DNA of 64,000 nucleotides from Magnolia sinica (lineage: Eukaryota > Streptophyta > Magnoliopsida > Magnoliales > Magnoliaceae). Positions 12,061-59,060 of this stretch are shown here, in pieces; the first letter of the stretch is position 1; each line of letters begins with the position of its first letter. The stretch is from NCBI RefSeq assembly GCF_029962835.1, contig NC_080584.1:78892862-78956861 (forward strand), in the 5' to 3' direction. The position numbers and the translations under genes are program-made. The notes beneath the pieces were generated by a model. It was not told the DNA's origin. It saw only the letters and a list, made by a program, of their open reading frames with translations, and ran no database searches.

Positions 12061-12069
12061 GCACTTTGG

Positions 12070-22346: not shown

Positions 22347-22354
22347 GTAAAAGT

Positions 22355-26792: not shown

Positions 26793-26843
26793 AAGTGGTA
26801 TCAGGGCCAAGTTCATTGAACGGAGAAGGATCGGTTTTGAATT

Positions 26844-31542: not shown

Positions 31543-33168
31543 GTGTGGTCTAGTTCAGCTTTAGATACTCATTTTTTAGTCCATTCTCGAAAGCAAGATG
31601 AAAAAAATTAATGGACATCATAGATAAAACAAATTCACATTGTGGGATACACAGAGCCTTGACCGGTGCTGGTAGCTACCAAGCTCCATACTGGAGAGGT
31701 TACTACCCAATCCATGTCCCATTCAATTATCCAATTGTCAAAGATAGGCCACCAAGCATGTTTGAAAGTTATTTTGTACTCACTTGAATTATTGTTCACG
31801 GTCGCATCGCTCAATTAAATTCTACCACGGCAAGTCACAGGCGACCTATGTGGGGTGATGACTTTCAAACGCCTACCTAGACTAGTATCAATCACGACCT
31901 TTCTTGGTAGACTTAAAATGAACGATAAAGCAAAAACATTTAATTTTACATAGGATGATACTTGTACCTTTTGTAACGTGGTTGTTAGAATTTATTAAGC
32001 AGTTTTTTTTTTTTTTCTCTTTCCTTTTCTAGCTTTGAAGGAAAATTCACAGTAAGTTTGATCTTACTCCATTGTTTGGGTTTTCCATTAGGGAGTGTGC
32101 GAATCTTTGTTAATAATGCTAGAAATGAGCTAAACAATTTTTGGATGATTCATAATATTGGATCACCAAGTTGCAGTTCTTATTGGAGTTTTTCTCGGTA
32201 AGTCTGTTTCTTTTTTCTTTTTTCTTTTGGAAAAACAGATAGTCTTCAATAAATTTTCCCATGTGGATTGCCTGAGTTGTGCCCTCCATAGAGCTTTTTC
32301 AAACAAACCATTTTATTTTTTATTTTTTTTGAAAACTCACAAAAAATAGTCATTAATAAACAAAATTTCTCAAATCATCTAACTGCAGTGCCGGATGGGT
32401 TGATATTAATCGGTCTAAAAGATTTATTTGGAAGCACTCTTTTATTACCTGTTGACCTTCGTTGGTAGGCTTAAGATGAAAAGTAGATTAAAAAGATTTT
32501 AATATCATATCATATAAAAATTATACTTTTTATAATTTAGGGTTAGAATCTATAGAGGTTTTTTTTTTTTTTTATTTTATTTTATTTTTTTTTAAACTAT
32601 GATATCCGGGTTATAGAATTAAATCAAGTAATGACTCTTCAAACCTTCAATGAGTCGAGCAGATTCATTTAGATTTTCAGCCTAGCCTACTAAAGATGTG
32701 CTTCCACTCATATATTAGGTCAATAGGTTGGGGTGTGACCTAAAATTTTATCCTAAATTATTAATGGGGCTGGGTTTGGGCTCCATTTGAGACCCATCAG
32801 CCTGTCCCATTTAAGGTTTCATGGACATTTTTGTCATATGGTGGGGCACACTTCATGAACAACCAGGCATAGTGATAAATACTTGCTCTTGGTGACTTTT
32901 AGGCAGAGAAATTTCGCGCGAGATTTTAAATTTTAAAGCTTTTCCCATGATATTATGGGGAAAATCTGGCCTAAAATAAATTATTTAAAAATATTTATTG
33001 TGAATAAAAATAAATTTATATAATTAATTCTTTATTATATTTAGCTATTTTTGCGATATCATTGTGATAATATCATTTAGTGTATTTTTCATGATATTAT
33101 TGTGAGAATTTCAAGATCTCAGTGATGGTTGTCACATTGCAGCCAGGATATATATTGCAGTACTTTGG
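31543..33168. other. MITE right remnant and AT-rich non-coding DNA, copy 2
   Basis: It begins with the right part of the split MITE (31543-31670), then matches 10581-12060. T-runs at about 32003-32016 and 32563-32592 differ in length from copy 1. No gene is seen. Confidence 0.55.
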
Positions 33169-33460
33169 GTGGCTGGGATCAGGCTCGGGCATATTTTAGT
33201 TTGGTCCCTCACGACCCAGGCAAGCTGGACATGGCTTATTGACCAGGTCCACCCTGGCTTATTTACAATCCTAGTACTTATCCAAAGCAAGCTGGACATG
33301 GGCTACCTCGCCCAGCTGAGGCAGATCACTGCTGCAGCCATCCTGTTGGAAAATGAACTTGCTGATTATAATTGGAGTTGAAATTCTAGAAATGCTAATG
33401 TTCAAGCACTAGCAAAGAAGCACAAAGGCTGGTTCTAATACAAGAAGATGGCACATGACC
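33169..33460 (+). other. Possible exon remnant, copy 2
   Basis: The partner of 12070-12360. The first stop is at the same place, and several amino-acid changes separate the two, as expected for sequence that is not under protein-level selection. Not recognised. Confidence 0.2.
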
Positions 33461-33759
33461 CATCCATTTTGGGCCCACTATATCAATGGTCCAGAATAAG
33501 TACATGAGAGAGAGACTTCGGTCACAAAACTGAAGCGAAAGGGTCAATGCCCATGCTTCTCCCAAAAGAAACCATGAGATTCATAGCATGGTGGCTCGTC
33601 TGGGTAGGACTCAGTAAGGACAAGTACAGGTCAGTACCACTAGTTACCCCTGATTCAACCCTAACTTTGGCTAGTCTAGTCAATTTACTCCTAGCTCAAT
33701 GGCCTTTGCATTCGAAGAACACGCGTTGCTACCTGATAACCGGACTGCGTGATTCTTCT
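33461..33759. other. Segment deleted from copy 1
   Basis: About 290 bp between AATAAGTACATGAG and the MITE left end has no counterpart in copy 1, where it was lost together with the MITE end. It contains GAGAGAGAGACTTCGG and no gene that I can support. Confidence 0.6.
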
Positions 33760-34304
33760 GGAAACGGATTGGCTACTCACCCTGCGACCAGCCCGGTGGC
33801 TGTGGTCGGTGCTCTGTGGGCCCCACCATGATGTATTTGCTTCATCCATTCCGTTCATTCATTTTTACAGATCATTTTAGTGTGTGATTCCAAAAATGAG
33901 AGGGATATAAATCTCAGGTGGACCACACCACAGGATAACAATAGTGATTGGATATCCACCATTAAAATCCTCCTAAGGCCTATTCTACTGTTTATTTTAC
34001 ATCTAATTTGTTGATTAGGTTATACAAGCCAAGATGAAGGGAAAAAACAAAGATCAGCTTGATCCAAAACTTTCATATCCCCCAAGAGGTTTTTAAATGG
34101 TCGACCCTCATTCAACACTGTTTGTTTCCTGTAATGTGGTCCACTTGTGATTGTGATATATCTCATTTTTGGTCTCATTCCATTAAATGATCTGTAAAAA
34201 TAGATGGACGGAATGGATGAAACACATAGATCATTTTGGAGCCCACGTAGCACCGACCACCAGCCATTGGCTGATGGCAGAGGGGGAGTAGCCAATCCCT
34301 TTCC
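33760..34304. mobile_element. Intact MULE-type MITE (545 bp)
   Basis: Ends GGAAACGGATTGGCTACTC and its near complement GAGTAGCCAATCCCTTTCC. A perfect 9-bp target duplication GATTCTTCT flanks it (33751-33759 and 34305-34313). Next inward come GGTCGGTGCTCTGTGGGCCCC and its complement, then the shared family core. No coding. The 9-bp duplication and long inverted repeats place it with Mutator-derived MITEs. Confidence 0.93.
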
Positions 34305-34327
34305 GATTCTTCTGTGATGAGCTGATG

Positions 34328-34336
34328 GATAAACCT
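34328..34336. other. Empty MITE site
   Basis: A single GATAAACCT, where copy 1 has this 9-mer on both sides of a 522-bp MITE (12942-13463). It is the pre-insertion sequence, or less likely a precise excision. Confidence 0.88.
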
Positions 34337-34918
34337 TACTGGCATTCTACACGTGTCAAGTGGGTGAATGGGGAAGTAGTAGTCAGGCAGGTTGGATCAG
34401 GTTAAGGGTCAACCAGAGCCTAACCTTACCCACCTCAAGAGGACCCAAACATGCAAACCGGGCCGAATTCCAAGCCAAGGTTCCCAACCCAAACTTCTCC
34501 ACCCTCAACATAAACTGGCCCAACCAATCGCAAACACATGTGATTTTCCCTAACCCGGCCTGAATTTGATTGACCTGAGCCCAATTCCCAGACCTTGACA
34601 ACCCGGCCCAACCCAGCCGGAACTCAGGTTGGGTCAATCGTTTTGGGTCAACCCGAACTCATGTTGCATCCTTGCTCCGGCTCATGCTGTAGACTTAAAA
34701 ACAATAGTGCTGAGATTTTAAAGAGCCATGATACGCCAACTACCACCTCACAACATGCCTCTGGTGGGCCCCACCACGAGGATGACCCGGTGCAAAAAAT
34801 ATGGTGGTCCACTCATCAGATGTACCATGTTTCCATGTTCAACGTATAGAGTGGACCGGCCTGCTTTAGGGCCAGATTATCAAAACAGTGGGTCCCACCT
34901 ACTGAAGGCTCATATGTC

Positions 34919-35421
34919 CGTGGCTGGTGGTCGGTGCTCTGTGGGCCCCACCATCATGTATGTGTTTCATCCATTCCGTTCATCAATTTTTATAGATCAT
35001 TTTATGGCTTGAGCCAAAAAATGAGAGGGATATAAATCCCAGGTACACCACACCACAGGAAAACAATAGCGATTGGACATCCACCATTAAAATCCTCCTA
35101 AGGCCCAATGTACTGTTTATTTGACATCCAATATGTTGATTAGGTCATAAAGACTTAGATTAAAGGAAAAAACAAAGATCAGCTTGATCCAAAACTTTCA
35201 TGGCCCCCTAAAAATTTTTATCTTAGGCGTTCATTCAACACTCTTTCCTATAATGTGGTTCACCTGAGATTGGGATATACCTCATTTTTGGTATCATAGC
35301 CTAAAATGATCTAGAAACACAGATGGACAGCATGGATGAAAAATATACATCATGGTGGGGCCCACAGATCACCGACCATCAGCCACTGGCTGGTGGCAGT
35401 GGGAGTAGCCAATCCGTTTCC
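34919..35421. mobile_element. MITE, left-truncated, copy 2 partner of 14063-14598
   Basis: The right end GGAGTAGCCAATCCGTTTCC is intact. The left ~46 bp, including the terminal repeat, is deleted, with homology resuming at GTGGCTGGTGGTCGGT. Confidence 0.8.
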
Positions 35422-35603
35422 TCTATACTCGCACTCATCAAGCAATCCTGAAAATCCAAGTAATAGCTGTCGGATGTATGGTTAAGAGTAAGTGACTGGT
35501 TGATGAGTGCATCTGAGCTTTCAGCAGGTAGGACCTACGTGGCAACTGTTACCCATGTGAATACGGATCCTCTCTTTGCGTCTAGCAGGAAGTTGTAATC
35601 TAA

Positions 35604-35990
35604 GGGCCTGTTTGGCCGGGCAGATCGGATGGGATTGGAAGGTAGATCCTGGGATTAGCCAGCGTGCCAAACAGACACGGGATGTTGATCCCGGGATATA
35701 GCAATCCCATGGATCTTAAGTCAATCCACTGACGTCACCATCATTACCTTTAAATCTCATCTAATCCACCCTAATCCCTTCAAAATTGCCCGGGACGTGT
35801 TTGGTTTGAGGGGTTGAAAGGGATTGAAAGGTTTAATCAAGGGATTGGCCGGGCGTGCCAAACAGACCGGATATAGCAATCCCATAGATCGTGAACCAAT
35901 CCACTGACACAGCTATCATTACCTTGAAATCCCTGCAATCCAATCTAATACCATCCAATCCCATCCAATCTGCCCGGCCGAACAGGTCCA
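35604..35990. mobile_element. GGCCTGTTTGG-type MITE, copy 2
   Basis: The partner of 14781-15163, with GGGCCTGTTTGGCCGGGCAG at the left and its near complement at the right (CCGGCCGAACAGG). No coding. Confidence 0.75.
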
Positions 35991-36677
35991 TTGGACCGTG
36001 TGACTGTGGAATGCATTGAATTTGCATCACTGACTGAGACGGACCAATCGCTATGTAGCAAAGGAGGAAAAAAGCAGGAAAGTTGTGGTTTGGGCAAACA
36101 GAGGATCCGGACTCGATTAGAATATAGATACCCTCCATCTAAAATGGGACCCACAATTTGGATGGTTCAGATAGCTGTACATCAGTGCCAGTTGTGAGGA
36201 GGATGAGACACATCTTTTAAACTCTGCAAAAAAAACTAACGCAATCCCAACTGCCCACCAGATTTGCAATCTGGATTTTCGATTCAAAGAAACTCAAACA
36301 AGAAGAGATCAAAATGATAAAACTCCAATAGCAATATAAAACACGACAGTATCATGTAGCTGTTATAACCACAGGATTTCAAAGAAACCTATGGCACGTT
36401 TGGATCCTCAATTCAACTGAAACGTGATAATCGGTCGATGCAGAACAAGTAACCTAGTTCCATGATTTCAAGTTGGACCTAAAACAATCTAAACCACAAA
36501 TAGGGAACCAACATCTGCTCTGTTCAACTGAAATATCACGATTGAATTCAATTGAACATCCAAACGTGGCCTATATACAGACAGAAACTGAAGAAGACAG
36601 AGCTACTATAAGAAACTAATTTCTACGCCACGATTTGAATTGGAATTTGGGATGTTGAGATCTCTCCATGACAATCT

Positions 36678-39146
36678 CTACTCCTTGGAACTTGCTGACG
36701 ACACGCTTTTGGACCGTGAATTCGTTGATGAATTGCTCGGCAGTTCAGAGCTTTGAGAAGCCGCCGGTGAAGAGTTGGAGAAGAAAACCACGTTCTGATT
36801 TTCTGCGAGAATCTGAAGCGATCTCGGTACCGGTGGGACGTTTGCTTCCAAAACGCCCTCCAAGATTTGAATAACCTGCCCCATAGACGGCCTGTCATTC
36901 TCGTCGTCTTGAATGCACCAGCCTGCAACTCTGCAAGCTCGACCAAGCTCTTCCATGTTCGCATTTCCCTCCAATCTGTAATCCAACAAGCAATGGATTT
37001 CACCATCCATGATTTTTCTCAGAGCCCAAATCGGGAAAAAGACTGTTTCCCCAACCGCCGATTGCTCTGTATTCCTCCTCCCTGAAATGATCTCGAAAAC
37101 CATCATCCCATAGCTGTAGACATCGGCTTTTGGCGTGATTGCCAGGCCTGAAATCCATTCAGGAGCAAGATAGCCTCTTGTTCCTCTCATGGTTGTTAAA
37201 ACCCGACTGAATTCCCGCCCAACAAGCTTTGCCAGACCAAAATCAGCCACCTTGGGACAGAACCCACCATCCAGAAGTATGTTTTCTGGCTTAATATCGC
37301 AATGTATGATACAGTCTCTGCATTTCTCATGAAGATAAGATATTCCTCTTGCCGTCGCAATCGCAATCTGATACCTCGTTGGCCAATCCAGGACATTGGA
37401 ATTCTTACCAAACAGATGAGAATCCAAAGACCCATTTGGCATGTAATCATAGACAAGCAGCCTTTTAGCCATTTCGGAGCAAAACCCACGAAGGCGGATG
37501 AGATTAACGTGTTGGATCGTCCCGATTGTGCTAACCTCCGTCCGGAACTGCTTTTCTCCTTGCCGAAGCCCTTCAAGCTTCTTCACTGCCACTGTTGTTT
37601 GATCAGGTAAAGTCCCTTTGAAAACAAAACCGAAACCTCCACCACCTAATTTCTCTGAGAAGTTCTTCGTTGCCATCTGCAGACTTCGGAAGCTAAATGC
37701 AGTCAAAGAGCCTTGAACTGCATCCGAACAAACAATATTCCGTTGCCACCGTCGCCTCCAAATAAAAAACAGAACAATACCCAATAGAAAAACAGCTCCT
37801 GCAACTGCGCCTACAAAAGCCCATGTAATGGTTCCCTTCCTACTGACCGAAAACTTCATTTCAGAGGGATCAAGACGGAGATGAAGAGTGCCTTCGTCAA
37901 CATTTCCACCAGACAACTGCTTCAGATCTAACAATTCTCCATTCCATATCAAACACCTGCTCTTGAAAGCATAAGCAGTGCAAGAACAGTCATTTAAGCA
38001 AGCCAATTCACATTCACTGACATTCCCAACTGCCAAAGATCGTGAGGGGTCCGGCAGCTTCATGCCAGACAAAGCCCAAAACCCGTCTATCTCACCATCA
38101 AAAGACACATTCTGCCCACACCTCAAAGGAGTTTTCCTCCTGCACCCACCTGACCAACTACTCAAATTCCAGTCATTCGGAGACTTTGGCTCGAAACCAT
38201 GCAAGCACGTACAGGGCAAGCTCTCCTCTTTGCAGCTCCCAAAGGCCCCACAAATAGCATAAACCTCACATTGAGATCTTGGCTGAGACCAGAACAGATT
38301 CCATGGCTGTGAGTCTTTCAGCCATGAAAACTGATTAATTTGGCCTGAAGAACCCATCACGAATCTTGAAAGGATGGAATCATTTTTCACCGAATAAGTG
38401 AAAAACTTCCTCTCTTTGGTTTCACTGAAATTGAAATTGTATATATAATTCAAGCTCATTTCAGGGACTAAGCTGAAAATATTTCCATCCCAATCCCCAC
38501 TAGTCCAGTAATTTCGAGTCCCATTCCACGTCATAAAATACTGCGTGCTTTGGTTCGGGTCTATTGAGAGAGAATGGCCCAGGGGCCGGATCTTCGGAGT
38601 TCTTCCATGAAGTAAGCCGTTGGTTTTCCTTCGTCACCTTGTTCAAACCAAGCCACCCTCCAGGCAGCCATGTATGAGTTGGGTGATCAAAGCTCTGCCA
38701 GTGCAGGACAGACGGATTGGACCGGTCTCTCAGAACTAGATTTCCATTATCTAGGAGGACCGCAACAGTTGAGTTCAACGGCTTGGATGTTAGATTGGTG
38801 GACCAGAGAGGAAATTTTGAGGCGCTCAGGAGGACTAGATTGCCATCTTCTGCAATTGTTAAGATTGAATTGGAGGGATTTGGGAGGGGCTTTTCTCTGT
38901 TAGCTACCCAGGCAACTGTTTGTTCTGAGATCTGTTTGTACCAGATGCCTATGTAGTAGTTCTGGGATTTGCCTGGTGTGAAGAAACCCAGTTCAAATAC
39001 CCCGCGTTGGGAGGTTAGGTTATGGGGCCAACTAAGATGTTGAGTTGGGGTGATGGAATCTAAACCATTGGAGAGGTGGGCCTTGAGAGAAAGGATGAAG
39101 AAGAGGAGGAGAGAGAGAGAGATGGCATGCTTCTTCTGGTATCCAT
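36678..39146 (-). pseudogene. Duplicate G-type lectin receptor kinase, frameshifted
   Basis: The paralog of 15852-18323. Relative to the intact copy it has two extra bases in the GA run at about 39110-39120, so the native ATG (39146) leads to a stop after about 28 codons. It lacks two bases in the GA run at about 38566-38573, which shifts the lectin frame away from the rest. The lectin frame (38500 to about 39174) has no in-frame ATG at its start. The remainder, from ATG 38534, is open for 618 aa: S-locus region, PAN, transmembrane helix, full kinase with HCDIKPEN, DFG and APEW. The Gly loop reads GGGGFGFVFKG, with Ser changed to Phe. A truncated kinase without signal peptide or lectin could be made only from internal ATG use. 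Assembly error in the GA runs is an alternative. Confidence 0.88.
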
Positions 39147-39174
39147 GCCTACTGAAACATGCACGGACATGCAA

Positions 39175-40580
39175 GATATATGTAGGGAGGAGAAGATACG
39201 ATGAGGTGCTTGGAAGGAGGTTTCCTGGTATTGAAGTGCGAAGTTAAAATTACTTAAATACCCCTTGGTTACCATGGTTGACTGGTTCTTCAAAGTTCAA
39301 ATTTTGTGGCTGAAACACCCTTCTGGACATGGTCAATGTGGAGTTTGTCTTGCCGTCTTGTGCCCGTGTCAAAGTTCTAAAACTCGCTGACTCGACCTGA
39401 ACTCGTCTGAGTCAGCTTGACTTGGTGAGATTTCAAGCCGAGTCACTGGAAGCCAAGGATTGATGGGCGGTTTTAAGCTGAAATTTGGTAGCTGCAAAAA
39501 AAAATTAAAATAAAAATTTTAAAAAAATCATGTTACAAAATACCGAGAATGTCTTATCGTGCTTTGCATGTATCAAAGTTAAAAAAATACCTAAAAATTC
39601 AATCTGGAGTCCTTGCATGCATAGTTTTTATATTCACTGGCTTGACTCTAAACTTGTCTAGATCAACTCAACTCACTGAGAATTGGAGCCGAGTCGCCAG
39701 AAACACAGTACTGATTCGCTTGAAAACTCTGTCGTGGATGTGACTTGTGATGGTATATCAATGTATCCCAAGAGACTTTAGCACTCTCTTGCATGTGCGG
39801 GGTGGAGCTATGCACACGAACATGTTAGGCGAAGGTGGGTGGAAGGACACTCTTAATTTTCTTGGTCCCTATAGTCTATTCAAAAACCTGTCTCCTCCAA
39901 TACTATATCAAATAATCATTTGCTTTAAAAGTTCAAGTTGTTAGACAACGATATATTAATATCAAGGAACTTGAAGATGACTCAACACTAAGTCAAGAAG
40001 ACGCGTTGAGTCGACTTGATGGAACTAAAACCGAACAAGGGAAGCAAACCATCCCTACCAGAGGTAAAAGGCACTTAAACACTGACAGTACCTTATGTAG
40101 TGAGCTACTATTAGATTTGACGTCGTTAGTATTTCTAATTTATAGTTATTAGATATTGAGTCAACTAAGGTCGAGTCTCAAATTTTGGAACCTTCTTGCA
40201 TAACACAAGAAATATTCAATAATTAAGTTTTCTTTTTTAAAAAAATGAATGGTAATAAATATTAGAAAAAAAGGAAGGTTTTGCTTACTTCCACACCTTC
40301 TTGGGGATGTTCCAAACCCTTTATATGGCACAAGAGATGATTAATCATCGATCTAAACCATTCATTCATTCACATAACTAGGAGCAAGCCATGATAACAG
40401 AATCACACCTATATCGGATTAACGTAAGTATAAAGTTTTGTTTGGTGCTAAGCTAAAGTAGCTTGATCCTTCTAGGAGAGGTTGCCTAGTGGAATATCTA
40501 TCTCCCATCAGCTTAAAATTTCATTCAAAAGAAAGTTTAAATATAATTAGTGGTAAATGGATGCATATGGATGAAAAGGG
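39175..40580. other. Non-coding 5' flank of the duplicate kinase
   Basis: The counterpart of 18324-19778. The (TAA)n tract of copy 1 is reduced to A/T runs at about 39497-39530. No gene is seen. It ends where copia C inserted. Confidence 0.55.
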
Positions 40581-41206: not shown

Positions 41207-42005
41207 ATGACGGAAGAAGGAAAAACTGGGATTGAGAAGTTTGATGGTTCAAACTTTGCCTTCTGAAAGATGCAGATAGAGGATTATCTTTTTCAGAAAG
41301 ATCTCTATATTCCTCTAGAAGGAAAAGAGAAGAAACCATAAAAGATAACAGATGATGAATGGTTTTTATTGGATCGGAAGGCTTTAAGAACGATCTGACT
41401 CTCTTTGTCTAAGAGCATCGCCTTCAATATATCCAAGGTGAAAACTATAAAAGAATTAATGGAAGCCCTAGCCACCATGTATGAAAAACCCTCAGCATCC
41501 AATAAGGTTCATCTTATGAAACAGCTATTCAATATGAAGATGTCAGATGATGGAAGCGTAGCTGAATATCTAAACGAGTTAAATACAATCACGAGCCAGT
41601 TGGAATCCATTGGCATTGTTTTTGAGGATGAGGTCAACGCGTTATTGATCTTGTCCAGTTTGCCAGACAGTTGGGATGGTTTGGTGATTGCTGTGAGCAA
41701 TTCTTCAAGGTGAACAAAGCTAAAATTTAATGATGTGGCCGGTCTAATTCTCAGCGAAGAATCTAGAAGAAAGGTATTAAGAGTTTTGGGGGATTCAGGG
41801 AATGCTCTAAACATTGAAGGAAGGGGAAGATCGATGAACAAAGGAGGCAATAAACATGGACGTTCTAAGTCGAGGAAGAAGTCCAAGGGACCGAAAGACA
41901 AAAATGGGTGTTGGCATTGCGAGAAGAATGGACATATGAAACGTGATTGCAGGGCGCTCAAGAAACAAGAAGGAAGCTCTTAAGGCGGGAAAGATTCAGT
42001 GAATC
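41207..42005 (+). pseudogene. Copia C gag (5' part of split gag-pol)
   Basis: It reads MTEEGKTGIEKFDG at the start, the usual copia gag opening. It then has a retrotran_gag region with LLILSSLPDSWDGL and a CCHC zinc knuckle (CWHCEKNGHMKRDC, 41909-41950). Internal stops lie at about 41265, 41338 and 41711. Shortly after the stop at about 41981 the frame is interrupted by the insertion at 42006. Confidence 0.88.
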
Positions 42006-43265
42006 TGTGAGACCCGTATCCTTGCCCGTACCGTTCCATAGGCTCGCGCAGTCTTCCTAGTCGAATTCCGGTGACCCGCGACTTACAGATTTCGTTTGCG
42101 ATGACCCTTAAGTTTAATCGTGTAAGCTCGACCCGGACCGACCCAGAATTAGCACCATAGCGACCACATTGTCGCCGCGGTTCTAACATCACGTCTCGTG
42201 TGGCAATCCGAGTTGTACATCACAAGATGTAAGCCACACTTTATTTGGACCTTGATCACGTTTGTGGGACCCACCTATGGCATGGCACGCCACCCTATGC
42301 ATGCATGACATCATCATCTTCATAATTTTCTAGCCACCTATAACTAGTCTAGACCCTAGCCACCCATAGCTAGTCTAGACCCCTAGGCCTCCTAACAAGC
42401 AATGATTCTCTTACATTCATAGCATGCCATTATTACATCTTTTTTTCTCCCTTATCTCCCTCCCTCTCTCCTTCTTTCCTCAATTTTCATCTTCCCTAGC
42501 AACTAGAGGCCATGGACGTCCCAACTCATATCCATGGCCAGCCCTTTCCCACCTTAGATCCCCCATATCCTGCCATCAAAAACTCATCTCCACCGTTGAA
42601 GGAGCCCCATTGGAGCTTTGGAGCATTAGGGAGGAATAAGAAGGAAGGTGGGTGTTTTCTATGGTTAAATCCCTCTTTCTCTCTCTCCCTCCTCTCTTTA
42701 TTTTCTCTTTATGATATGATGATATGTATGTATGGCCCACCTGATCGACAATTTGGACTGTAAAGATTTTCTAGACGTCCAGCGAATGGGGTCCGTCTTG
42801 CTGCCCGTTTTGGGCTAGCTAGGATAAAGGGAAATAACAAATATTAGCTTGGTCTGTGTGAACTCCACCATGATTGATGTATTTCATTCATGCCGTGTGG
42901 GGGGGCCACGTTCATGTGGGACCCACCTTGATTAATGTATTCACGTCATCCGTCCAGCGTCCCTAGATGCTGGGCGTGTTTCGTGAACGTGAACAGACAG
43001 TGAGGTGTACCAGCAGCAAGGCTTTTGGGAGAGTTACTTATGCAGGCCCCACCTTAATGTATGAATTTAATCCATGCCGTCCATCCTATTTCCCAGATTA
43101 TTTTAGGCATTGAGCCGAAAAATGAAGCCAATCCGACTATCTGGCGAGCCAAAGCATAGAAAATAGTGTTGTTACCGTTGAAATCTACCTGATATTTCTG
43201 TACCCCAAAACATGTCAAATATTGGGCTTGTTTGGTCTGTAATGAGTCATGGAATCCAATGGCGG
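42006..43265 (+). repeat. Block A of the insertion
   Basis: 1.26 kb, homologous to the reverse complement of 47526-49067. Shared landmarks are the start (GAGACCCGTATCC versus AAGACCTGTATCC), a CT-rich stretch followed by CACCGTTGAAGGAGCCC (versus its counterpart near 48460), and the end at GATGCAGGCC. Open frames here are not conserved in A'. Confidence 0.78.
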
Positions 43266-45009
43266 GGTTGGATCCACCTGATGCAGGCCTTGTCGTGCCC
43301 CAAACTCGGAAACTGAGCTCACAAAATTCCTGATTGCCGAATCCGGTGCCGACAACCTCCGTAGTACCACATTCTCGACTCTCAGCGTCCATACGCTAGA
43401 TTCCGATCCTAGGATCCTATAAAGAGGATTTTACAATGTACATTTAACTCATAATAAGCATAACCACAAGTTTACCCAAGTCACAAAGGCAACATCATCG
43501 TCACATATCCACTAATATATACAGTTGAATACAGTGCTGAAAGGGAAATACATATACCAAAAATCAAAGCTCCATAAGTCCATTACACGCTCCAAGCTTA
43601 ATGCTGCTGCAACCTGACACCACCTGCACGCATCTATCGTGCATAAGCTTATAGAAAGCTTAGTGAGTGATGAAAGTATGTGCACAAAGTTAGTGCCAAG
43701 TAAACAATATCAGAGTAAGCGAAAGTACTGACAAGTCCATGAGTCATACAATATCAAGGTACATAATGCAAATCAGTTATGCAAATGAGGAGTCAAAGCG
43801 AGCTAAATATTAGATGCCGAGGATACAATGCCATAAATTATACAATATCGAAATAAGCAAATATATTGATAAGTTTATGAGTGTCATCAGTCATACCAAG
43901 GCTATGCGATGCAAGGCATGAGTACTAATAGTCATACCAATGCAGAAACATGGCAACCCAAAAATGTTAAGTATTGTGGATGTAATGTAATATGCGGTGC
44001 GAATGAAATGACCAAGCTGGAGTGAAGTCGGGATGATAGCACGTAGTATCGCAGGCTATGGGGTCCATCACAAAGGACTTCTATCCAAACCAGTCCCATA
44101 CCTAAATTTGGATAGTCAGACTCAATGTGGTGAACTCCTGATCTCAGGTTAGTCGCGCGCCCAACCGAAATCCTGGCCATGCGAAGGTACACAACAATTA
44201 GTTGCGCACCACAAGCCCGAGTGGATAGTGAATGAAACGAATGCATGAGTATGCAACTTCTACTCAATAAGTCTACATATCAGTACGGTTCCTCTTTGGG
44301 ATCATCACCGGGGTCTAGTACACTCTACGCTACATGCCGCCCCATCAAGAGCACAACTGGGTAAGTGGAAGTGACCTCAATATCCGCGTGGCCAGTAGTT
44401 TGTCAATACCTACCCAGCCTAGCTATGCCTACTCCCTCAGGCAGGTAAGGCCACACCCCCTCCTAACCAACCACAACACGGTGGGAGACGCGGCTTCCTA
44501 ATATTCGGCACTCGGGCACTCATGTACATCCACTCAGTCTCGACGTTGGCGCATCCTCTGCTACCAAGAGGGTTTTAGGAATTTTTACGCAGGGCCATCT
44601 ATGGCAGCCCGTTGCTCAAACCAAACATTTTCGGTGTTCCATCTGGCCATCCACGATATGCCTGTGGAGGCTACGGCCCTAATGTCGCTAGGGCATACAG
44701 TAATCACAACCCACAATACAAGATGCATGAGTCATACAATCCAGTCATGCATCAATCCTGCGCATACCGTGCGCTCATGTAAGATAACTTCTGCCTATCA
44801 GGGAGTCTCATAACAACCTGCCCAATGACATATGCAATGGTCAACCACATCTCATAACAAACATGCAGATGATGCGTATGGGCATGTATCATGATGCTAT
44901 GCAATTACATACTCATAATCAGTATCAATAACCGGCATCGACAATCAACCTCGACAATGTGGACATTTAACCAACATTGCCCTCAAGGCATGACCCATAT
45001 AGAGCCTAA

Positions 45010-45260
45010 AATACAGTGGACTCATGGCCTCACATCAGGGCCAAATATACAACACCATGGGCTTCACTCAAGAGCTTAATACACATCGCGATGGGCCTCA
45101 CTCATGGGCCACATATACATCAAGTGGGTCGCATCTCAGGAGTCTAATTTACATCGCAATGGGCCACTCCCACGGGCCTAATATACATCAAGTCGGGCCT
45201 CACCATATGGGCCAAAAATATATCACAATGGGCCACGTCCCATAGGCCTCGATTACATCA
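45010..45260 (+). repeat. GGGCCTCACTCATGGGCC tandem array
   Basis: About seven imperfect units of roughly 30-36 bp, with the pattern GGGCCTCAC...GGGCCA...ATATACATCA. It resembles the subterminal words of the MITE family. Inverted counterparts are in block B' at about 51460-51745. Confidence 0.75.
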
Positions 45261-45264
45261 CAAT

Positions 45265-45640
45265 GGGCCTCAACAATCAAAATCGGCCTCAACAATTGGA
45301 ATCGACACTCGGAATCGGCCTCGATACTCGGCCTCGACAATCGAAATCGGAAAATCGATCACGACAATCAGAATTGATCGATAATCAGAATTGGCAAATC
45401 GGTCGCGTTAATCGGAATCGGCAATCGGTCATGATAAATGGCCTCGATTGCTAATTGGCAATTGGTCAAGTCAATCGGAATCAGCAATCGGTCGTGATAA
45501 ACGGCCTCGATCGCTAATCAGTAATCAGTCATGATAATCGAAATCAATCGATAATCGGAATCGGTAAATCGGTCACGACAATCGGTAGTGATAATCAGCA
45601 TCGATAATCAGTAGATAAACAAAGCGAGGTTCATAAATGA
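45265..45640 (+). repeat. AATCGG-rich degenerate short repeat
   Basis: Long run of short words (CTCGACAATCGGAATCGG and variants, period about 12-20). The inverted counterpart at 51290-51460 reads GATTATCGGTRCCGATT-like words and is shorter. Confidence 0.7.
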
Positions 45641-46349
45641 TCAGTCGATCAACTATAGTATAAAGATCGGCACTTGGCCGTGGTTATATCAATTTTGATA
45701 GCACGTAGTCATCCGTCTATGGTGAATGAGGCCCACTTATTTGGGTTATCCCACTAAGGGAATGATGAGAATGGTCTAACAAGGCCTAAGGGAAGGTCAC
45801 AATGTGAACATCTAACCATCATTGCCCATCAATGTGGACATCTAACCAACATCGCTCCCAAGGAGTGGCCTACATAAAGAATTCATACACAATGTAGCGG
45901 TCACACATACATCGTATTGGGCCTCGCTCATGGGGGCCACAAATACATCACAATGGGCCTTATTAACTGGGCGACAAATACATCACAACGGGCCGCTTGG
46001 ATCAAACACATACATCATGTGGGGGCCACATGGATGGGTGGTGTGAATATACAACACATCTCAAGGTGGACCCTACCTGTCCTACGACAAAAATAAATGG
46101 ACGGCTAGGCATAGAACACATGCATCAAGTTGTCCACCGTCCCACAAAACAGATGGGCGGCGTTGCTGCAAAGCACATACATCATGGTTGGCCCATATAG
46201 CACCGTCCAAATGGATGGCATGTATATAAAATACATATATCAAGGTGCAACAACGAACCTCACTCATGGGACTCACATACATCAGATGGGCCCTGCATAC
46301 AGTAGGTGATCCTAAAAACGGGTAGACGATGTGGGAAAGCCCATACATC

Positions 46350-46560
46350 ATGATGGGCCACAAGTATATCAAGGTGGGCCTCTCAAATGGGCCACAAAAC
46401 ATATCAAAGTGGGCCTGACGGATGGGCCACAAAGTACATCAAGGTGGGCCTCACAGATGGGCCACAAAATACATCAAGGTGGGCCTCACAGATGGCCACA
46501 AAATACATCAAGGTGGGCCTCACAGATGACCACAAAATACATCAAGGTATGGTTCGCAAT
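46350..46560 (+). repeat. 35-bp tandem array
   Basis: About five to six units of 35 bp, GGGCCTCACAGAT plus GGGCCACAAAATACATCAAGGT. The last units are nearly identical, so the array is young or homogenised. The inverted counterpart is 50520-50990. The apparent ORFs in three frames are periodic reading of the array, not proteins. Confidence 0.85.
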
Positions 46561-47525
46561 TTGGACGGTGTGGATAAGATACATACAGCATGGTGGAGTC
46601 CACACGTGTGTGGGTCCCACGACTGCAATGCGGCAGGGATAAAACACATCTATCTTGTGTGGCCCACAGACCATGGTGATGTCAATACATTAGAGGTACG
46701 TCAGCCAATCCCTCTGGTGGGTCCCACGTGCATGCCCACCAAATATAAGATATATGTATATATCATATATCTATATATAATATATAAGATTATTTAAATA
46801 TTACAAGTTCCAGCGTCCAAGTGTGGTGGACGGACGGCTGGGATGTACAGTACATCCTCTTAGCCACATACATCACAATGCATATATCTGTGGGCTCCAC
46901 CTCCACACGTGTAGCACGTGTGGAGTGGGTCTCACGGTAGCCCAAAGATGGACGGACAGTTAGATGGCAAATACATCACTGTGTGCATCACCGTCCAGCA
47001 TCTAGACGGTGGACACAATACATACATTGTGTGGACCCACATGGGTGTTGACGTCAATACAGCAGCTATATATAGCTGCGTGCGGTAAATATCCAATCCA
47101 TTTTCATGCAAGTGGGTCCCACATGGGGCCCACCATAACATTTATCTTCCATCCAAGCTATTAACAAGGTCACAAAGACCAGAATAAAGGGGGGAAAAAC
47201 AAATTTCATAACAATCCAATACTTCTGAGACAACCCAAAAAAAGATTTCAATGGCAGCCGTCCAATCCCACTGTTTCTTATGACGTGGGCCATTTGAGTT
47301 CCACATATTGCCGATTTTTGGTGGGGGCCCACTGCCCTAAGGGGCCTACCTAATGCACGGTGTGGATGTTCTACCACATCATGGTGGGGCATACGGAAGG
47401 GACCCACGTTCCTGGCCCTCTGGATGCCGTAACAGCGTAGGACACTACTGTGCACGTTGCAGCAGCAATGCCTGCTGCTTTTTTATTTTTTATTTTTTTG
47501 AAAAAACTGTATTCTCGCAGTTTTT

Positions 47526-49067
47526 CTTAAGTAGGGCCTGCATCCGGAAAATCCAACCCATCCATTTGACTCCATAGCTTGAGACCGTCCAAAAGAGCCC
47601 AATATCCAGTATGTTTTGGTGTACCGAAATATCAGGGTGAGTTTTAACGGTAAAAATCACCATTTGCTACGCTATGGCCTGCCAGAACCTTGGATTGGCT
47701 CCATTTTTCGGCTCAACGTTTAAAATGAGGTAGGAAAGGGGATGGATGGCTTAGATTAAAAATAAATATCAAGGTGGGTCCTGCTGAGCGGCCCACCCAA
47801 CACCCCCCTTTTTTTACGTTAGTACACCCATTGTCAGCTCACACTTCATTGAGTTGCAACGTCCAGCGTCCCTGGATGCTGGACGGTTGCATAAAACATA
47901 TATTTAAGGCGGGCCCCACCTACGGACATGCTGTCCAGGTGGGCCACCCAAATGGTTGGATGGTGTGGGTAATACACACATCAAAGTAGGATCCATCCGA
48001 GTGGGCCACACAGCCACCTATCACAAGAAAAATGAAAAGAGAGGGAGAGAGGGAGAGAAAGAAAGAGATCGAGTGATGGAGGGATCCCGACACTATGAGC
48101 CCTCCCTTCCATGATTTACAACATACATCGAGTGGGTCCCATTCCATATGGGCCCATCGATCAAAATCAACAGTGGAGTCCTTTCTCTACCGAAATGGAA
48201 AGTCTAGATGACCCATTTTTTAAACTTAGAAAGTAAACATCATGATGCCATGGAGAATGGCCCCTTCTGGAATGACCATGATAATCAAGGTGGGCCATCG
48301 GCCACATCTTAGAGTCCAAAGTGAGATTCGTACCATCAATTGGTAGGCCTCACTTAGTCCATCATAAAAATATAAAATCTAGCCTATGGAAGCACTCACC
48401 TTTGATCTCTTTTTTATTCTTCCGTCAATGCTTGATACGGCTCCATAGGAACAATTTTAACGGTTGAGATGAAACTTGGATGGTAGAGATGAGAGGTAGG
48501 AAGGTGGGCCACACTAGCTCTCCTCTCCCATGGAAAATTTTTGGACGTTGGGTTGCTTGGAGTTTTTTGGAAAAATGGAGAAAATGAGAGAGATAAGAGA
48601 GATGAGAGAGGGTGTGATGTAAGAGAAGTGATGAGAGAGAGGGATTGTGAGTGTTGGGTGATGGGTGAGTGATGTGTACTTGACATGTAAGGGATGAGTA
48701 GCTTTGACTTTGGGGTTGCTTGGGAATGGGGTGTGAAGTGATGTGTACTTGACCCTTGATTGATTGATTGATGTGACATTGGGTAGAAATTCTCTTGGAA
48801 TTACAAATGCGCAGCGTTTTTCTCGAATTGAACGCAGGCCCACATCTTCTGGCCTGGGTATCAGGTCGGTGCATGAGTCGCGACGTTGGAACCTCGATGA
48901 TGATGCGGTCACAATGGTACACGTTTCAAATTAAGCCGACTCAGATCTATAGGATACGACCTAGGGTTGCGCGCAAACATCAATTATAGGTTGTGGGTTG
49001 ACAAAATTCGTTGGGAAGGATCGCGGGAGTCAACGGAACAGTTCGGACTAGGATACAGGTCTTACAG
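47526..49067 (-). repeat. Block A' (inverted A)
   Basis: 1.54 kb centre of the insertion, flanked on both sides by the same block-B end (GGCCTG), so it is the loop between the two B arms. It includes GA/CT-rich tracts (about 48025-48070 and 48570-48650) that give long but low-complexity frames on the minus strand. Confidence 0.78.
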
Positions 49068-52000
49068 GCCCCACATGGGAAAAACGGTAGCAAATCTATT
49101 TTTTTTAAAATAAAAATAAATAAGAGGTAGCAGGTGCTGCTGCTGGCGCTAGAGGATGCCGCGCAGCGTCCTGCTGCGCTCCTGTGCTTGATGGACAGAC
49201 AGGCAGGGACCCACGGTCCCAGCCATGGGCCCCACCATGATGGGTGTTGATCATCAACACCGTGCATTTGTTGGGTACCCTCTGACAAGTGGGCCACCCC
49301 AAAAATCAGCTATATGTGGGACTTAGGTGGCCCATGTCACAGGAAACAGTGGGTTTGAACATCTGCTATTGAAACCCTTTTGGGTATCATAGAAGTTTTG
49401 GATCATTATGAAATTTGTTTTTCCTATTCATTCGGGTCTGTCTGACCTTATCAATAGATTGGATGGAAGATAAACGTTATGGTGGGCCCTACGTGGGACC
49501 CACTATGGTTTATGTGTTTTACCCACACCGCGGTGAGACCCACCCCATGTGTGGGGTTTCCCTTGATGTATGTGAGTGTCCAAGCTGTCCAGGGCCTGGA
49601 CGTTGTATGTTTATTAAATATAATATTAATATATTATATTATATTAATATAATATATGATATGTTATATTATATATTATATTATAATATAATATAATATT
49701 TTTGATACAGATGTTGTGGTGGGCCCTACATGGGACCCACCTCTACCCTCTTAAATGCATAAAAGCTGCACAACAACAACTATATTTATAATATATATTA
49801 GCTATTGTATATATATACATAAGGGTGGGCCCTACGTGGGACCCGCCTTTGCTGTTCTTTAATGCAGCATTTGTTGCATGTACGGCAGCTATATAGCTGC
49901 CCTGTGATGTGTAGACCTGCTGTTGTACACGGCAGCAAGTTCTGTGGGTCCCACATCTTCCATCCATGTCGTCTAGCTATGGGGCCCACCATGATTCATG
50001 TGTTGTATCCAAACCGTCCAACCATTTGAGATATCATTTTATGACATGAGTACAAGAATGGGTTAGATCTAAAGTTCAAATGGACCCCAGCATTTGCAAT
50101 ATTAGTGGACAGTGATATCCATCGTTCAAACTTCTAAGGGCCACCGTAGTTTTCAATGAAGCTGATATTTGTTTTCACTTCATCTATTAGTATGTTAACT
50201 TATGGATAGGTTAGATCTCAAATACATCACGGAGGGCCACTCCGTGATGTGTCCAGCCATCGATCAGGTGGACCACACCGCAAAAATAGTGGGTTTGAAC
50301 ATCCACCATTAAAACCCTTGGGCTACAAGGTTTGGACCTATATGATATTTTCCCCCACTCTTAATCCAGGTCTTTATGACCTTATGATTAGATTGGTTGG
50401 GAAATAAACTTTATGGTGGCCCCTGTGAATTGTTTTAATAGTGAAAATTATTATCTCCATTGTCACTTAGGGTATGGCCTGATCCTTCAATATGACTCAT
50501 TTTTTTTAAGGAATTTATGGGGCCCGTTGTCGAGGCCCACCTTGATGTGTATAAGGCCTATTGTAGAGGCCCATCTTGATACATATCAGGCCCATTATTG
50601 AAGCCCATCTTGATGTAATTGTAACCCGTCCATTGAGGTCCACCTTGATATACATGAGGGCCATTGGTGCGGCCCAATTTGATATAGACGAGGCCCATTG
50701 GTGCGGCCCAATTTGATATACATGAAGCCCACTGGTGGGACCCATCATGATGTATTTTGGCCCATGGGCGGACCCGCCCGTTTGTATTGTTAAGCCCATG
50801 TAATGATGCCCACTCGATATATGAGGCCTAGTATTGAGGCCTGTGCGATGAGGCTCATATAATATATTTGAGGCCCAAGTGCAAGGCCTACCTATTGTGT
50901 ATTCGAGGCCCGATGTGATGTATGTTGACCCATATGATGAGGCCGATGTGATGTAAATGAGGCCCATCATGATTGTATGAGAGGCCATGGGCCCAAAATA
51001 TGTTTGGCCTTATGTAGGTCACTCCTTGGGAGCAATGTTGGTTAGATGTCCACATTTATGGGAAATAACGGTTAGATGTCCTCATTGTGACCTTCCCTTA
51101 GGCCTTGTTAGGCCCACTCTCTTCGTGAGTTAACCTAAATAAGTGGGCCCCATTCGCCATAGACGAATGGCTCCGTGCTATCGGATTTTATATAACCATG
51201 GCCGAGAGCCGATCTTTGCATTATGGTTGATTGGTTGTCCATCTACGGACCCTGCCTTGTTTATATATGCTAGTTGTTGGTGCCGATTATCAATGTTGAT
51301 CGTCGGTGCTGATTATCAATGTTGATTATCGGTACCGATTTGTCGAGGTTGATTGTATAGGTCGATTCTGATTGTCGAGGCCGAGTATCGAGGTCGATTT
51401 CGAGTGTCGATTTCAATTGCCGAGGCCGATTTCGATTGCTAAGGCCGATTGCTGAGACCTATATGATGTATATGCGACTCATAGTTGAGGGCCCATTGTG
51501 ATGTACTTGAGGCCCATGGGTAAGGCCCATTGTGATGTATTCGTGGCTTATGGGCAAGGCCCATTATGATATGTATTAAGCCCATAATGTATGACCCATT
51601 TGATGTATTCGAGACCCATGTGTAGGGCCCACATGTCATGTATTTGTGGCCCATGAGCGGGGCCCACCTGTCGTGTATATGTGGCCCTTGAGTAAGGCCC
51701 ATTGTGTTATATATTAGGCCCTTGAGTGAGGCCATGAGCCCATTATATGTTTGGCTCTATGTGGGTCATTCCTTGGGGGCAATGTTGGTTAAATGTCTAC
51801 ATTGTCGAAGCCGATATTTGATGCCGGTTATTGATACCGATTATGAGTATATGACAGCATAACATCATGATACATACCTATATGCATCATCTGCATGTTT
51901 GTTATGAGATGTGGTTGACCATTGCATATGTCATTGGGTAGGTTGTTATGAGACTCCTTGATAGGCGGAGGTTATCTCACATGAGTGTATGGTATGCGCA

Positions 52001-53590
52001 GAATTGATGCATGACTAAATTGTATGACTCAGGTATCTTGCATTGTGATTACTGTACGCCCTAGTGACATCAGGGCCATGGCCTCCACAGGCATATCGTG
52101 GATGGCCAGACGGGACACCGAAAATTTATTCTAGCATCGGGCTGCCATAGATGGCCCTGAGTGAAATTTTCTAAACTCTATTGGTACCAGAGGACGCCCC
52201 AACGTCGAGACCGAGTGGATACATGAGCGCTCGAGTGCCGAATACCAGGAGACCACGTCTCTCACTTTGGCGTGGTCGGTTGGGAGGGGGTGTGGCCTTA
52301 CCCGCCCAAGGGTAGGGGGCATAGCTAGGTTGAGTTTGACCAGCTCGTAAATGGGTCCGCTATCGACATGCCGGATAGACATTGGCAAACTATTGGCTAG
52401 GCGGATAGTGAGATTTCTTACGCTCACTTGGACTATGCTGCTGGGAGAGGGGCAGTGCCATTTGGAGTGTACTAAACCCCGGTGATGTTCCCAAAGATGA
52501 ACAATACTGATATGTGGACTTATTGAGTAGGAGTTGTATACTCATTCATTCATTCATTCACTATCCACTCGGGTTGGTGGTGCGCAACTATTTGTTACAT
52601 GTACCTTCGTAATAGCCAGGATTTCAGTTGGGGCGCGCAACTAACCTGAGATCAGGAGTTTACCACATCGAGTCTTATTATCCAAATTTAGGTATGGGAC
52701 TGGTTTGGATAGAAGTCCCTTGTGATGGACCCCATAGCCTGCGTACTACGTACTATCATCCCAACTTCACACTCCAGCATGGTTATTCCATTTGCACCTC
52801 ATATTTTGCATTACATCCGCGGAATATGACATTTTGGGTTACTATGTTTCTGCATTTATATGGTCTAGATACGGCTGATGTTATTCGTGGACTCATCAGG
52901 AATTGCATATTGCATCGCATCCTCGGCATCTGATATCTGGCTCTTTATGACTCCTCATTTACATAGCTGTTCTATATTGCGTATTCTGATATTGATTGAC
53001 TCATGGAATTGTCCGTATTTTCACTTACTTTATTATCGTATGATTTATGATCTTGTCAGTATTTTTGTTTACTCTGATAATTCATGATCTTGTCAGTATT
53101 TTTGCTTATTCCGATATTGTATGATTTATGGATTACCGGTATTTCTGGTATTGTATGATGACGACATTATATTGAATACTTGACACTTACCTTGTGCACA
53201 CACTTACACCACCCTCTAAGCTTTCTATAAGCTTATGCACGATAGATGTGTGTAGGTGATGCTACGTTGCAGCAGCGTGGAGCTTAGAACCTGTAGCTGA
53301 CTTCTGGAACTTTAATTTTTACATATGTATTTTCCTTCAGCATTATGTTCAAATGTTTATATTAATGGATATGTGATGATGAAGTTGCCTTTGTGATTTG
53401 GGTATACTTGTGGTTATGCTTATTACGAGTTAAATGTACATTGAAAAAAAAATTCTCCTTGTAGGATTCCAGGATCTGAATCTGGCGTATGGACGCTAGG
53501 AGCTGAGAATGGGGTACTACGGAAGCTGTCGGCATCGAATTCGGCGATCGAAAATTTTTTGAGCCCGGTTTTCAAGTTTGGGGCGTGATA
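49068..53590 (-). repeat. Block B' (inverted B)
   Basis: About 4.5 kb right inverted arm. It contains an AT palindromic tract (49616-49705), GGCCCA arrays (50520-50990 and 51460-51745), then a part (51780-53590) that is the reverse complement of 43270-44990. That includes CTTTCTATAAGCTTATGCACG at about 53220 and its partner at about 43640. Confidence 0.8.
49616..49705. repeat. AT-rich palindromic tract
   Basis: TATTAATATATTATATTATA-type sequence of about 90 bp that is close to self-complementary. A shorter related tract is at 46740-46800 in the other arm. Confidence 0.7.
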
Positions 53591-55113
53591 GAATTTATCT
53601 GAGGAGAGATATAGAGGCGTTGATCTTGTCTCTTGATGTGAAGAATGAGTCTTGTCTTGGGTTATAGACTTGGGTGCTTCGTTTCATGTCACTTTGTATA
53701 AGGAAGTTCGGCGTGATTATGTGTCAAGTGACTTTGGGAGAGTCTACCTGGGTGATCATGAGTCATGCAGTATCATTGGAAAGAGAGACGTTCATATAAG
53801 TCAGAAAGATGGAACGACTTTGAAATTGAAGAATGTCAGACATATACTGAGTTTGACATGGAACTTGATCTCAGTGAGGCAGTTGGCTGATACCGATTAT
53901 GTGACGACATTCACTAGTGATTCCTGGAAGATCACAAAAGGTTCCTTGGTGATATCTCGAGGCAAGAAGGAAGGTACTTTGTACATGACTTCAGGATCGT
54001 ATAGTTTACTCGCAGTCGCATCAACTGGAGTAAATGGGCAGTTATGGCATCAAAGGTTGGGACATATGAGTGAGAAGGGGATGAAAGTGCTATTGTCAAA
54101 GGGGAAGCTATCCGAGCTAAAGTCTATTGACTTGGAATTCTGCGAGGACTGCGTATATGGCAAGCAAAAGAGGGTGAGCTTCAAGAAGACATGACGGGCT
54201 CCAAAGACGCATCTGTTAGAGCTTGTACACACTGATGTGTGGGGACCGACATAGGTATTATCTCTTGGTGGCTCATGTTATTTTGTTTCCTTTAATAATG
54301 ATGCTAGTAGAAAACTGTGGGTCTATTTCTTAAAACATAAATATATGTATTTGATGTATTTAAGAAGTGAAAAGTAATGGTAGAAAACAAGATATGTAAA
54401 ACAGTAAAATGTCTCAGATCTGATAATGAGAGAAAATACTGTGATAAGAGATTTAAGGAGTATTGTGCAGCAAATGGAATCAAACATCAGAAAATGATAC
54501 CATTCTGCTATGGTGTCCTTGGTATCAATAGAAGTCCCTTAACACCATTGGATGGTGGGCTACTAGAAGAAGCGTGGATTAGGAAAGAAGTGAACCTTGC
54601 ACATCTCAAAGTATTCGGTTGCTCTTCATATGTTCACATTAATGTAGAGCACATAAATAAGCCGGATGCAAAGTCCATGAGGTGCGCGTTTATAGGCTAC
54701 GGGCATCATGATTTTGGTTATAGGTTTTAGGATACAGAAAACAGGAAAATCATCAGAAGTAAGGACGTAGTCTTCAATGAAAAAGTAAAACATAAGGACT
54801 ATGTGAAGGAAAATAAGGCCGATGAGAAAGAATTCGTAGAGTTGGAAGAGTTACTGGACACAGGTATTACAATGCCACAAGATGATCATGCACAAGAGCA
54901 TTATTAGGCAGAGCCACAGACATCGGTTGTGAGGACGTCTACTTGGGAGAGAAGACCGACGGTTCGATACTCACCCTCCTTACATTATCTACTGCTGACA
55001 GATAATGGTGAACTAGAGTATTTTGAAGAGGCATTACAGTTGGATATACGGGTTAAGTAGGAGCAGGTCGTGGATGATGAGATGGGCTCTCTTGAGTCTA
55101 ATAAAAGCAATTA
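53591..55113 (+). pseudogene. Copia C pol remainder, truncated
   Basis: It continues the element after the insertion. Protease VIDLGASFHVT (about 53660; Gly instead of the usual Ser-Gly is shifted to Leu-Gly). GAG-pre-integrase LWHQRLGHMSEKGM (about 54045). The first part of integrase has stops. Then comes an internal deletion that joins CAANGIKHQK directly to the integrase C-terminal part (NRSPLTPLDGGLLEEAW), and LKVFGCSSYVHI. The last recognisable part is the region before RT (EYFEEALQ), ending at about 55113. Confidence 0.87.
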
Positions 55114-58003: not shown

Positions 58004-58462
58004 TCGTGCCGAGTAAACTCAGTCGGGCCCACCGCGGATGCATGTGGTTTATCCACGCTGTCCATTCATTTTCTAGATCATTTTATGAGTCCAACCCAAA
58101 ATTGATGCATACACAAAGTTTAAGTGGGCCATGCCACTGAAAAAAGTGGAACTATTGATTTCAACTGTTAAAATTTTTTTAAGGCCCCCAGTATGTTTAT
58201 TTGTCATCCAACCTGTTCATAAGATAGAAGGAGATGGATGAATGGAAAACACAAATATCAGCTTGATCTAAAACCTCTGTTGTCCCCAAGAATTTTTCAA
58301 CGGCAGATGCTCAATTCACACAGTTTCCAGTGGTGTGGTCCATTTGAGGTCTGGATATAATCCATTTTTGAGGTAGAGACCTAAAATTATGTGTTAATAG
58401 AAATGGACGGAGTGGATACACTGCACGAATGACACAGTGGCCCACGGAGTTTACTCAGTACG
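58004..58462. mobile_element. MITE inside the hAT element (first)
   Basis: The left end CGTGCCGAGTAAACTC and the right end GAGTTTACTCAGTACG are near complements; inward comes GTCGGGCCCACC and its mate. The core has CATCCAACCTGTTCATAAG and the other family words. No clear 9-bp duplication. Confidence 0.7.
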
Positions 58463-58599
58463 CTTACCTTACTCAGTATGCAATCCGCCTCCCTAGCCTA
58501 TATGCTATAGCTGCTCTTGGTACGTGTTGTACAGCACTGATGCTCCTCGATCACCGAGTTGTGAGGACGGTTCAAAGGAGATCAAAGTTACATCTTACG

Positions 58600-59060
58600 T
58601 GGGCCCCACAGTGATGTATATATTATATCTACACCGTTCATCTATTTTTAGAGATGATTTTAGAGCATTATCTAAAAAAATGAATCATATCCAAAGATCA
58701 TCTGAACCACACCATAAATAGCAATAGAGATAATGATTTTCACCGTTAAAAAATTTGTAGGGCCCACTATAACGTTTATTTTACATCCAACCTGTTTATA
58801 AGGTCACAAGCAACTGAATGAATAGGAAAAATAAATTTCATAAGGTCATAAGTACTAAATGAAGAGGAAAAACAAATATCATATTGATCCAAAATTTAGG
58901 TGACCCTAAAAAGAGTTTCAATGGCAGGCGTTTAATCACCTACTAATTTTTGAAGTGTGGTCTAATTGATGGTTAGATCTGTCTTATTTTTTGTCTCAAG
59001 CCTTAAAATGAGCTGACCAAATGGATGGACGGTTTGGATATAACACATACCTCGTGAGCT
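58600..59060. mobile_element. MITE inside the hAT element (second)
   Basis: Core from GTGGGCCCCACAGTGATGTATA to GATGGACGGTTTGGATATAACACATACC. The right part (ACCAAATGGATGGACGGTTT) is repeated at about 59055-59083, a small local duplication. Ends are not resolved. A CT run lies at 59157-59176. Confidence 0.6.

Follow-up and report, generated by a model that had tools for sequence, protein, structure and literature searches.

An 11.6-kb non-coding insertion in a copia element of Magnolia sinica (positions 42006-53590 of the 64,000-nucleotide stretch analyzed here, hereafter the window) raises the question of what kind of mobile element could consist of two blocks, A and B, both of which are repeated in inverse orientation in the same unit, in the order A-B-A'-B'. 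The coordinates of this insertion, its ends TGTGAGACCC and GGGGCGTGATA, the GAATC/GAATT flanks and the inverse placement of both blocks, as recorded in the first-pass annotation, are all confirmed by re-reading and self-comparison of the window. The evidence discussed below indicates, with a probability of about 0.96, that the A-B-A'-B' arrangement arose when one non-autonomous LTR-retrotransposon family inserted twice in succession, the second copy being reversed inside the first one.

In the self-comparison of the window, A and A' align in inverse orientation (43042-43289 versus 47535-47784, 76%), and the inverted B/B' match comprises four main blocks at 75-82%:

43297-43710 with 53169-53584, inverted B/B' block 1
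43714-45413 with 51324-53029, inverted B/B' block 2
45576-45877 with 51010-51305, inverted B/B' block 3
47111-47404 with 49215-49504, inverted B/B' block 4

The lengths of the A/A' and B/B' runs far exceed the chance expectation. A second pair of element ends, missed in the first-pass annotation, is located inside the block, at 43291 (TGTCGTGCCCC) and 49066 (GGTCTTACA). When reverse-complemented, the right end of the insertion resembles the sequence at 43291 (TGTCGTGCCCCAAACTCGG) and the left end resembles the one ending at 49066 (GGATACAGGTCTTACA); these inner ends carry their own 5-bp near-duplication, GGCCT/GGCCC. The features of the insertion are the following:

42006..53590, plus strand, E1, a solo-LTR-like copy interrupted by E2 (ends like those of genome copies; GAATC/GAATT; uninterrupted site in copia relatives)
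42006..43290, plus strand, left part of E1 (block A), 1,285 bp, colinear, after reverse complementation, with the last part of E2
49067..53590, plus strand, right part of E1 (B' and a short stretch before it), 4,524 bp, colinear, after reverse complementation, with the first part of E2
43291..49066, minus strand, E2, a solo-LTR-like copy comprising blocks B and A', 5,776 bp, located within E1 and reversed relative to it
42001..42005, no strand, left target-site duplication of E1, GAATC (flank comparison)
53591..53595, no strand, right target-site duplication of E1, GAATT (flank comparison)
43286..43290, no strand, left target-site duplication of E2, GGCCT (flank comparison)
49067..49071, no strand, right target-site duplication of E2, GGCCC (flank comparison)

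Without E2, E1 spans 1,285 + 4,524 = 5,809 bp, the second copy of the target repeat being counted. The colinearity between E1 and the reverse complement of E2 holds over the full length, the E2 site included: the match extends to the last base of the right part of E1 and starts from the second base of the left part, and the homology switches between the two parts within a 4-bp overlap (in E2 coordinates) that falls within the target duplication. Each of the two duplications, that of E1 and that of E2, contains one mismatch. Because E1 has the structure A|B' and E2, in the opposite orientation, reads B-A', nesting yields A[B-A']B', and the A-B-A'-B' arrangement is an ordinary nested insertion. 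The assertion that neither an LTR element nor a foldback produces this order holds for a single element, whereas a nested, reversed sibling gives exactly this order. In a global alignment with one copy of the duplication omitted, E1 and E2 are 67% identical over 5,226 columns; some middle stretches are poorly alignable, with less than 50% identity, and the columns near the join are colinear. Direct repeats within 42006-53590 are limited to sub-repeats, namely, a 35-bp tandem array and two weaker pairs in the right part of E1, one of 147 bp (74%) and one of 361 bp (67%); given that no direct repeat is found at both ends, the block itself is not a two-LTR element. The arrays are located as follows:

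46352..46548, no strand, 35-bp tandem repeats of the GATGGGCCACAAAATACATCAAGGTGGGCC type, inside E2
50521-50744 and 51490-51733, GGCCCATTG arrays related to the GATGGGCCACAAAATACATCAAGGTGGGCC-type repeats, inside E1

Short stretches related to the MITE-like repeats present elsewhere in the window are also found within E1, near 49322-49491.

Searches of the source genome (1.84 Gb, 127 contigs) scored the best 40 candidates each, so that all counts are lower bounds; the scored family matches fall on C1-C19 and C23. Among the best 40 of 11,243 first-look candidates obtained with a 400-bp query across the A-B junction, only the window itself spans the junction, and all 39 other scored matches start at query positions 194-208, with E2 starting at position 201. 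The proposal that A-B-A'-B' recurs as a unit was therefore not borne out: other copies with the same ends are numerous for each component and absent for the compound unit among these best 40 candidates. With a query from the A end, 12 copies (L009-L020) were fetched, and both ends were traced in nine of these and one end in three (L010-L012). The nine fully traced copies are 4,115-6,274 bp long, eight of them at least 5,600 bp and one (L014) 4.1 kb. An insert of the size of E2 is present at the E2 site in none of the 12 fetched copies; in all 12, the spacing across this site differs by less than 0.6 kb from that in E1 without E2, and in four (L012-L015), the two halves abut exactly at the site.

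The flanks of 11 copies, namely, E1, E2, eight two-sided copies and one two-LTR element, were compared; L020, as one half of a two-LTR unit, was not included. The flanking 5-mers agree at four or more of the five positions in 9 of the 11 copies, compared to 1 of 110 mispaired flanks used as a control; in L014 and L018, the flanks match at three of the five positions only. Most of the ends that were read are of the TG...CA type; the exceptions are a terminal TA in E1, in L029 and L036 and in the second LTR at C10, and an initial CG instead of TG in L013. The family thus has the TG...CA-type ends and the 4-6 bp target duplication of LTR retrotransposons.

Two LTRs in the same orientation, separated by approximately 0.4 kb, are found at four places, C2, C6, C10 and C14; this arrangement of direct LTRs around an internal domain is not retained by the copies in the window, which are solo. 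The C14 element is fully bounded and consists of an LTR of ~6,039 bp, an internal domain of 389 bp and an LTR of ~5,991 bp, flanked by CACGT/CACGT, for a total of ~12.4 kb, of which the LTRs account for about 97%. The internal domain is 411 bp long at C6 and 403 bp at C2, with second LTRs of ~5.6 and 6.3 kb, respectively, and the LTRs in the family range from 5.6 to 6.3 kb. The outer 5' ends of the C6 and C2 units were sought in L042 and L043 and were not found, so that one of these three units is fully bounded. At all four places, the internal domain begins with GAAGT followed by a sequence resembling TGGTATCAGAGC, which we take to be the Met-tRNA primer motif; none of the four sequences reproduces this 12-letter motif exactly, each differing by one or two letters. 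The domain ends with AGGAGGGGAGAGC (C2, C6 and C10) or TGGTGGGGAGAGC (C14) before the next LTR, so that the TGT of the 3' LTR is preceded by a purine-rich tract, AGGAGGGGAGAG in the former three and TGGTGGGGAGAG in the latter, a feature of LTR retrotransposons. We interpret the start of the internal domain as a decayed primer site for tRNA-Met and its end as a purine tract, and if so, they suggest that the true orientation is plus for E1 and minus for E2. A GAGGACGAAATTT box, which occurs in Ty3/gypsy chromoviruses, lies beside the purine tract in exact form only in the C14 copy; a search of the window for this box yielded no matches.

The internal domain of C2, used as a query, gave 3,303 loose candidates, of which the best 40, one being the query itself, are all nearly full length and at least 88% identical, that is, at least 40 internal domains are present in the genome. 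One locus pair, L020/L021, is a tandem LTR-internal-LTR-internal array. Of the LTR 3' ends scored (40), another 14 single ones were fetched, and none is followed by an internal domain; accordingly, these are either solo LTRs or 3' LTRs. Neither E1 nor E2 keeps an internal domain, so that their status as solo LTRs rests on these relatives. The K2P distance between the two LTRs of one unit is 0.05-0.09 in five comparisons, of which three cover 0.6-1.3 kb, and that between units is 0.13-0.17 (four comparisons on ~0.6 kb).

The lack of coding capacity in the insertion noted in the first-pass annotation was upheld: none of the 30 frames scanned, out of the 65 listed stop-to-stop frames of at least 60 aa, has a Pfam match at E <= 0.01. 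In the C2 copy of the internal domain, no stop-free stretch is longer than 37 aa. Coding remnants in the insertion or the internal domain were considered as candidates and rejected on these two grounds. Given that no coding sequence was found, the family is taken to be non-autonomous, and its mobilization would depend on a partner.

At the site of E1, the left and right flanks are contiguous in all nine fetched copia relatives (of 39 others scored); the overlap between the flanks is exactly the 5 bp GAATC in eight of these, and the remaining one, L054, reads GATTC at the site, with the right match beginning just after it. The integration into copia with a 5-bp duplication, as originally proposed, is thus corroborated by all nine relatives, but the insertion as a whole represents two events rather than one. 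The host element continues beyond E1:

53649..54191, plus strand, host copia (Pol_BBD and gag_pre-integrs domains, Pfam E-values of 2.3e-17 and 3.1e-17)

Elsewhere in the window, copia remnants are part of an ~18-kb tandem segmental duplication (1315-19777 and 22293-40580), with the main blocks 93-94% identical. The duplication contains S-locus-lectin receptor kinase genes at 15855-18473 (minus strand, one 873-aa frame) and 36681-39243 (minus strand, split into two frames), as well as a 103-104 bp tandem repeat (2523-2729 and 23521-23829) that is present in two copies in one duplicate and approximately three in the other. Related, partly self-complementary MITE-like repeats of ~500 bp are located at 12414-12913, 14064-14598, 33760-34304, 34920-35421 and 58018-59053.

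The likely order of events can be outlined from one of the fetched copies. L010 has the left insertion site of E1 in copia (191 bp, 92.7%) and lacks E2, although ~150 bp around the E2 site are missing and the right part is truncated. The presence of this site without E2 suggests that E1 precedes E2 and, more specifically, that E1 already resided in copia and was duplicated along with it before the arrival of E2. In the preferred explanation, E1 integrated in plus orientation into the gag-pol region of copia, duplicating 5 bp (GAATC), and later, E2, a member of the same family, entered E1 in reverse, 1.29 kb from its left end, duplicating GGCC[C/T]. Both remain as solo LTRs of ~5.8 kb, the internal domain and one LTR having presumably been lost through LTR-LTR recombination. 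A partner, possibly a Ty3/gypsy chromovirus with initiator Met tRNA as its primer, is likely to have supplied in trans the enzymes that copied the family.

Insertion into other copies of the family is not confined to the window. Among the 25 copies with checked flanks (8 on both sides and 17 on one side), four are clearly located inside another copy, as indicated by the flank matches:

L009, L031 and L039, nested in the same orientation
L037, nested in inverted orientation

In addition, the nesting of L033 is doubtful because the match begins 158 bp away; the flank of L030 contains only two family fragments of ~40 bp. In L009, the copy at 3770-9453 (in the reverse complement of the locus) has a perfect CAACT duplication and is located inside another family copy in the same orientation. 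At L037, another family copy, in inverted orientation, immediately follows a family LTR end, which makes it a second case of opposite nesting or abutting. One may speculate that a high-copy family consisting almost entirely of LTRs inserts into its own copies unusually often and that the recurring inverted pairs could feed hairpin-RNA silencing, but this is a tentative idea, more likely to be wrong than right.

Several other explanations of the insertion have to be considered. A single non-autonomous element with its own A-B-A'-B' architecture, moving as an 11.6-kb unit, would readily account for the one outer pair of ends and the 5-bp duplication that matches at four of the five positions. 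Such an element is hardly conceivable, however, given that a second pair of family ends, with a near-duplication of its own, lies inside it, that all 39 other scored junction matches (among the best 40 of 11,243) stop at the junction, and that the fully traced copies, 5.6-6.3 kb long in eight of nine cases and 4.1 kb in L014, have no inner insert of the size of E2. The arms themselves bring to mind a foldback or inverted-terminal-repeat DNA transposon (B-loop-B') to which A was added by chance: plant foldback elements have long inverted arms with tandem sub-repeats, and B and B' are inverted arms of ~4 kb that contain such sub-repeats. Yet MULE/foldback elements make duplications of ~9 bp, as opposed to the 5-bp duplications in the flanks here; in the two-LTR relatives, a short internal domain lies between direct repeats of 5.6-6.3 kb; A and A' are accounted for as the parts that complete the two copies; and a recurring B-loop-B' structure with ~9-bp duplications was not seen in the fetched copies. 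Taken together, these features make a foldback origin exceedingly improbable.

Inverted repeats can also originate from an inverted segmental duplication, as a recombination product or through an assembly error, and the inverted half of the insertion might have arisen in one of these ways. This origin is very unlikely in view of the strong divergence between E1 and E2 (67% identity overall, 75-82% in the main B blocks), which implies that neither is a recent copy of the other, and of the element ends and 5-bp near-duplications that border each of them. Two successive insertions of one family remain the preferred explanation, and the alternative suggestion of the first-pass annotation, that of two head-on copies of a LARD-like element, came close: there are indeed two LARD-like copies, but they are nested rather than head-on. 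Thus, an apparent new class of mobile elements is removed, the order of the inverted blocks being explained by the nesting of a sibling in a sibling. What the genome holds is a family that combines LTRs of close to 6 kb with an internal domain of close to 0.4 kb, which annotation tools with limits on LTR length might miss or split, and the solo copies of which look like 'non-coding 6-kb unknowns'.

With respect to known systems, the family can be described as a LARD-like, non-autonomous LTR retrotransposon whose LTRs are giant; a literature search of main texts recognized no paper describing it. The barley element Sukkula, the type LARD, has a long conserved internal core, in contrast to the internal domains of 389-411 bp at C2, C6 and C14. 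The lack of proteins, the minimal internal domain and the tandem array at L020/L021 are reminiscent of TRIMs, for which the cited sections describe tandem LTR-internal-LTR-internal arrays and, in a figure legend, one inverted pair (PMC7215508, PMC4717578). Unlike TRIMs, which have short LTRs and were searched for, in the cited section, with LTRs of 30-500 bp (PMC4717578), the Magnolia family has LTRs of 5.6-6.3 kb, more than 10 times longer. Beet chromoviruses, as characterized in the cited part of the respective study, have a tRNA-Met primer site at most 3 bases from the 5' LTR and a purine tract immediately upstream of the 3' LTR (PMC3605345); similarly, in the Magnolia family, a primer-site-like sequence starts ~5 bases into the internal domain, and the 3' LTR is preceded by a purine-rich tract. 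Unlike in chromoviruses, gag, pol and a chromodomain were not found in the 30 frames scanned and the C2 internal domain. The source of the enzymes is possibly a Ty3/gypsy chromovirus, perhaps of the Tekay/Del clade.

The closest resemblance is to Mtr77 of Medicago truncatula, which is classed as a LARD and, according to the cited section, has an LTR of 2,191 bp and an internal domain of ~200 bp in an element of 4,668 bp (PMC2533021). In that section, LARDs are assigned by total length, so that Mtr77 is included despite its ~200-bp internal domain (PMC2533021); the ~12.4-kb C14 element likewise is non-coding, non-autonomous and longer than 4 kb, as LARDs are. Mtr77 (PMC2533021) and the Magnolia family share a non-coding sequence, long LTRs, a very short, degenerate internal domain and many copies, and differ in size, Mtr77 being shorter than the Magnolia family with its LTRs of 5.6-6.3 kb, internal domain of ~0.4 kb and total length of ~12.4 kb at C14. 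Among the designs described in these sources, Mtr77 is the nearest one (PMC2533021); the Magnolia family is longer and of the same kind, and mildly unusual in that its ends are very long and its middle is almost absent.
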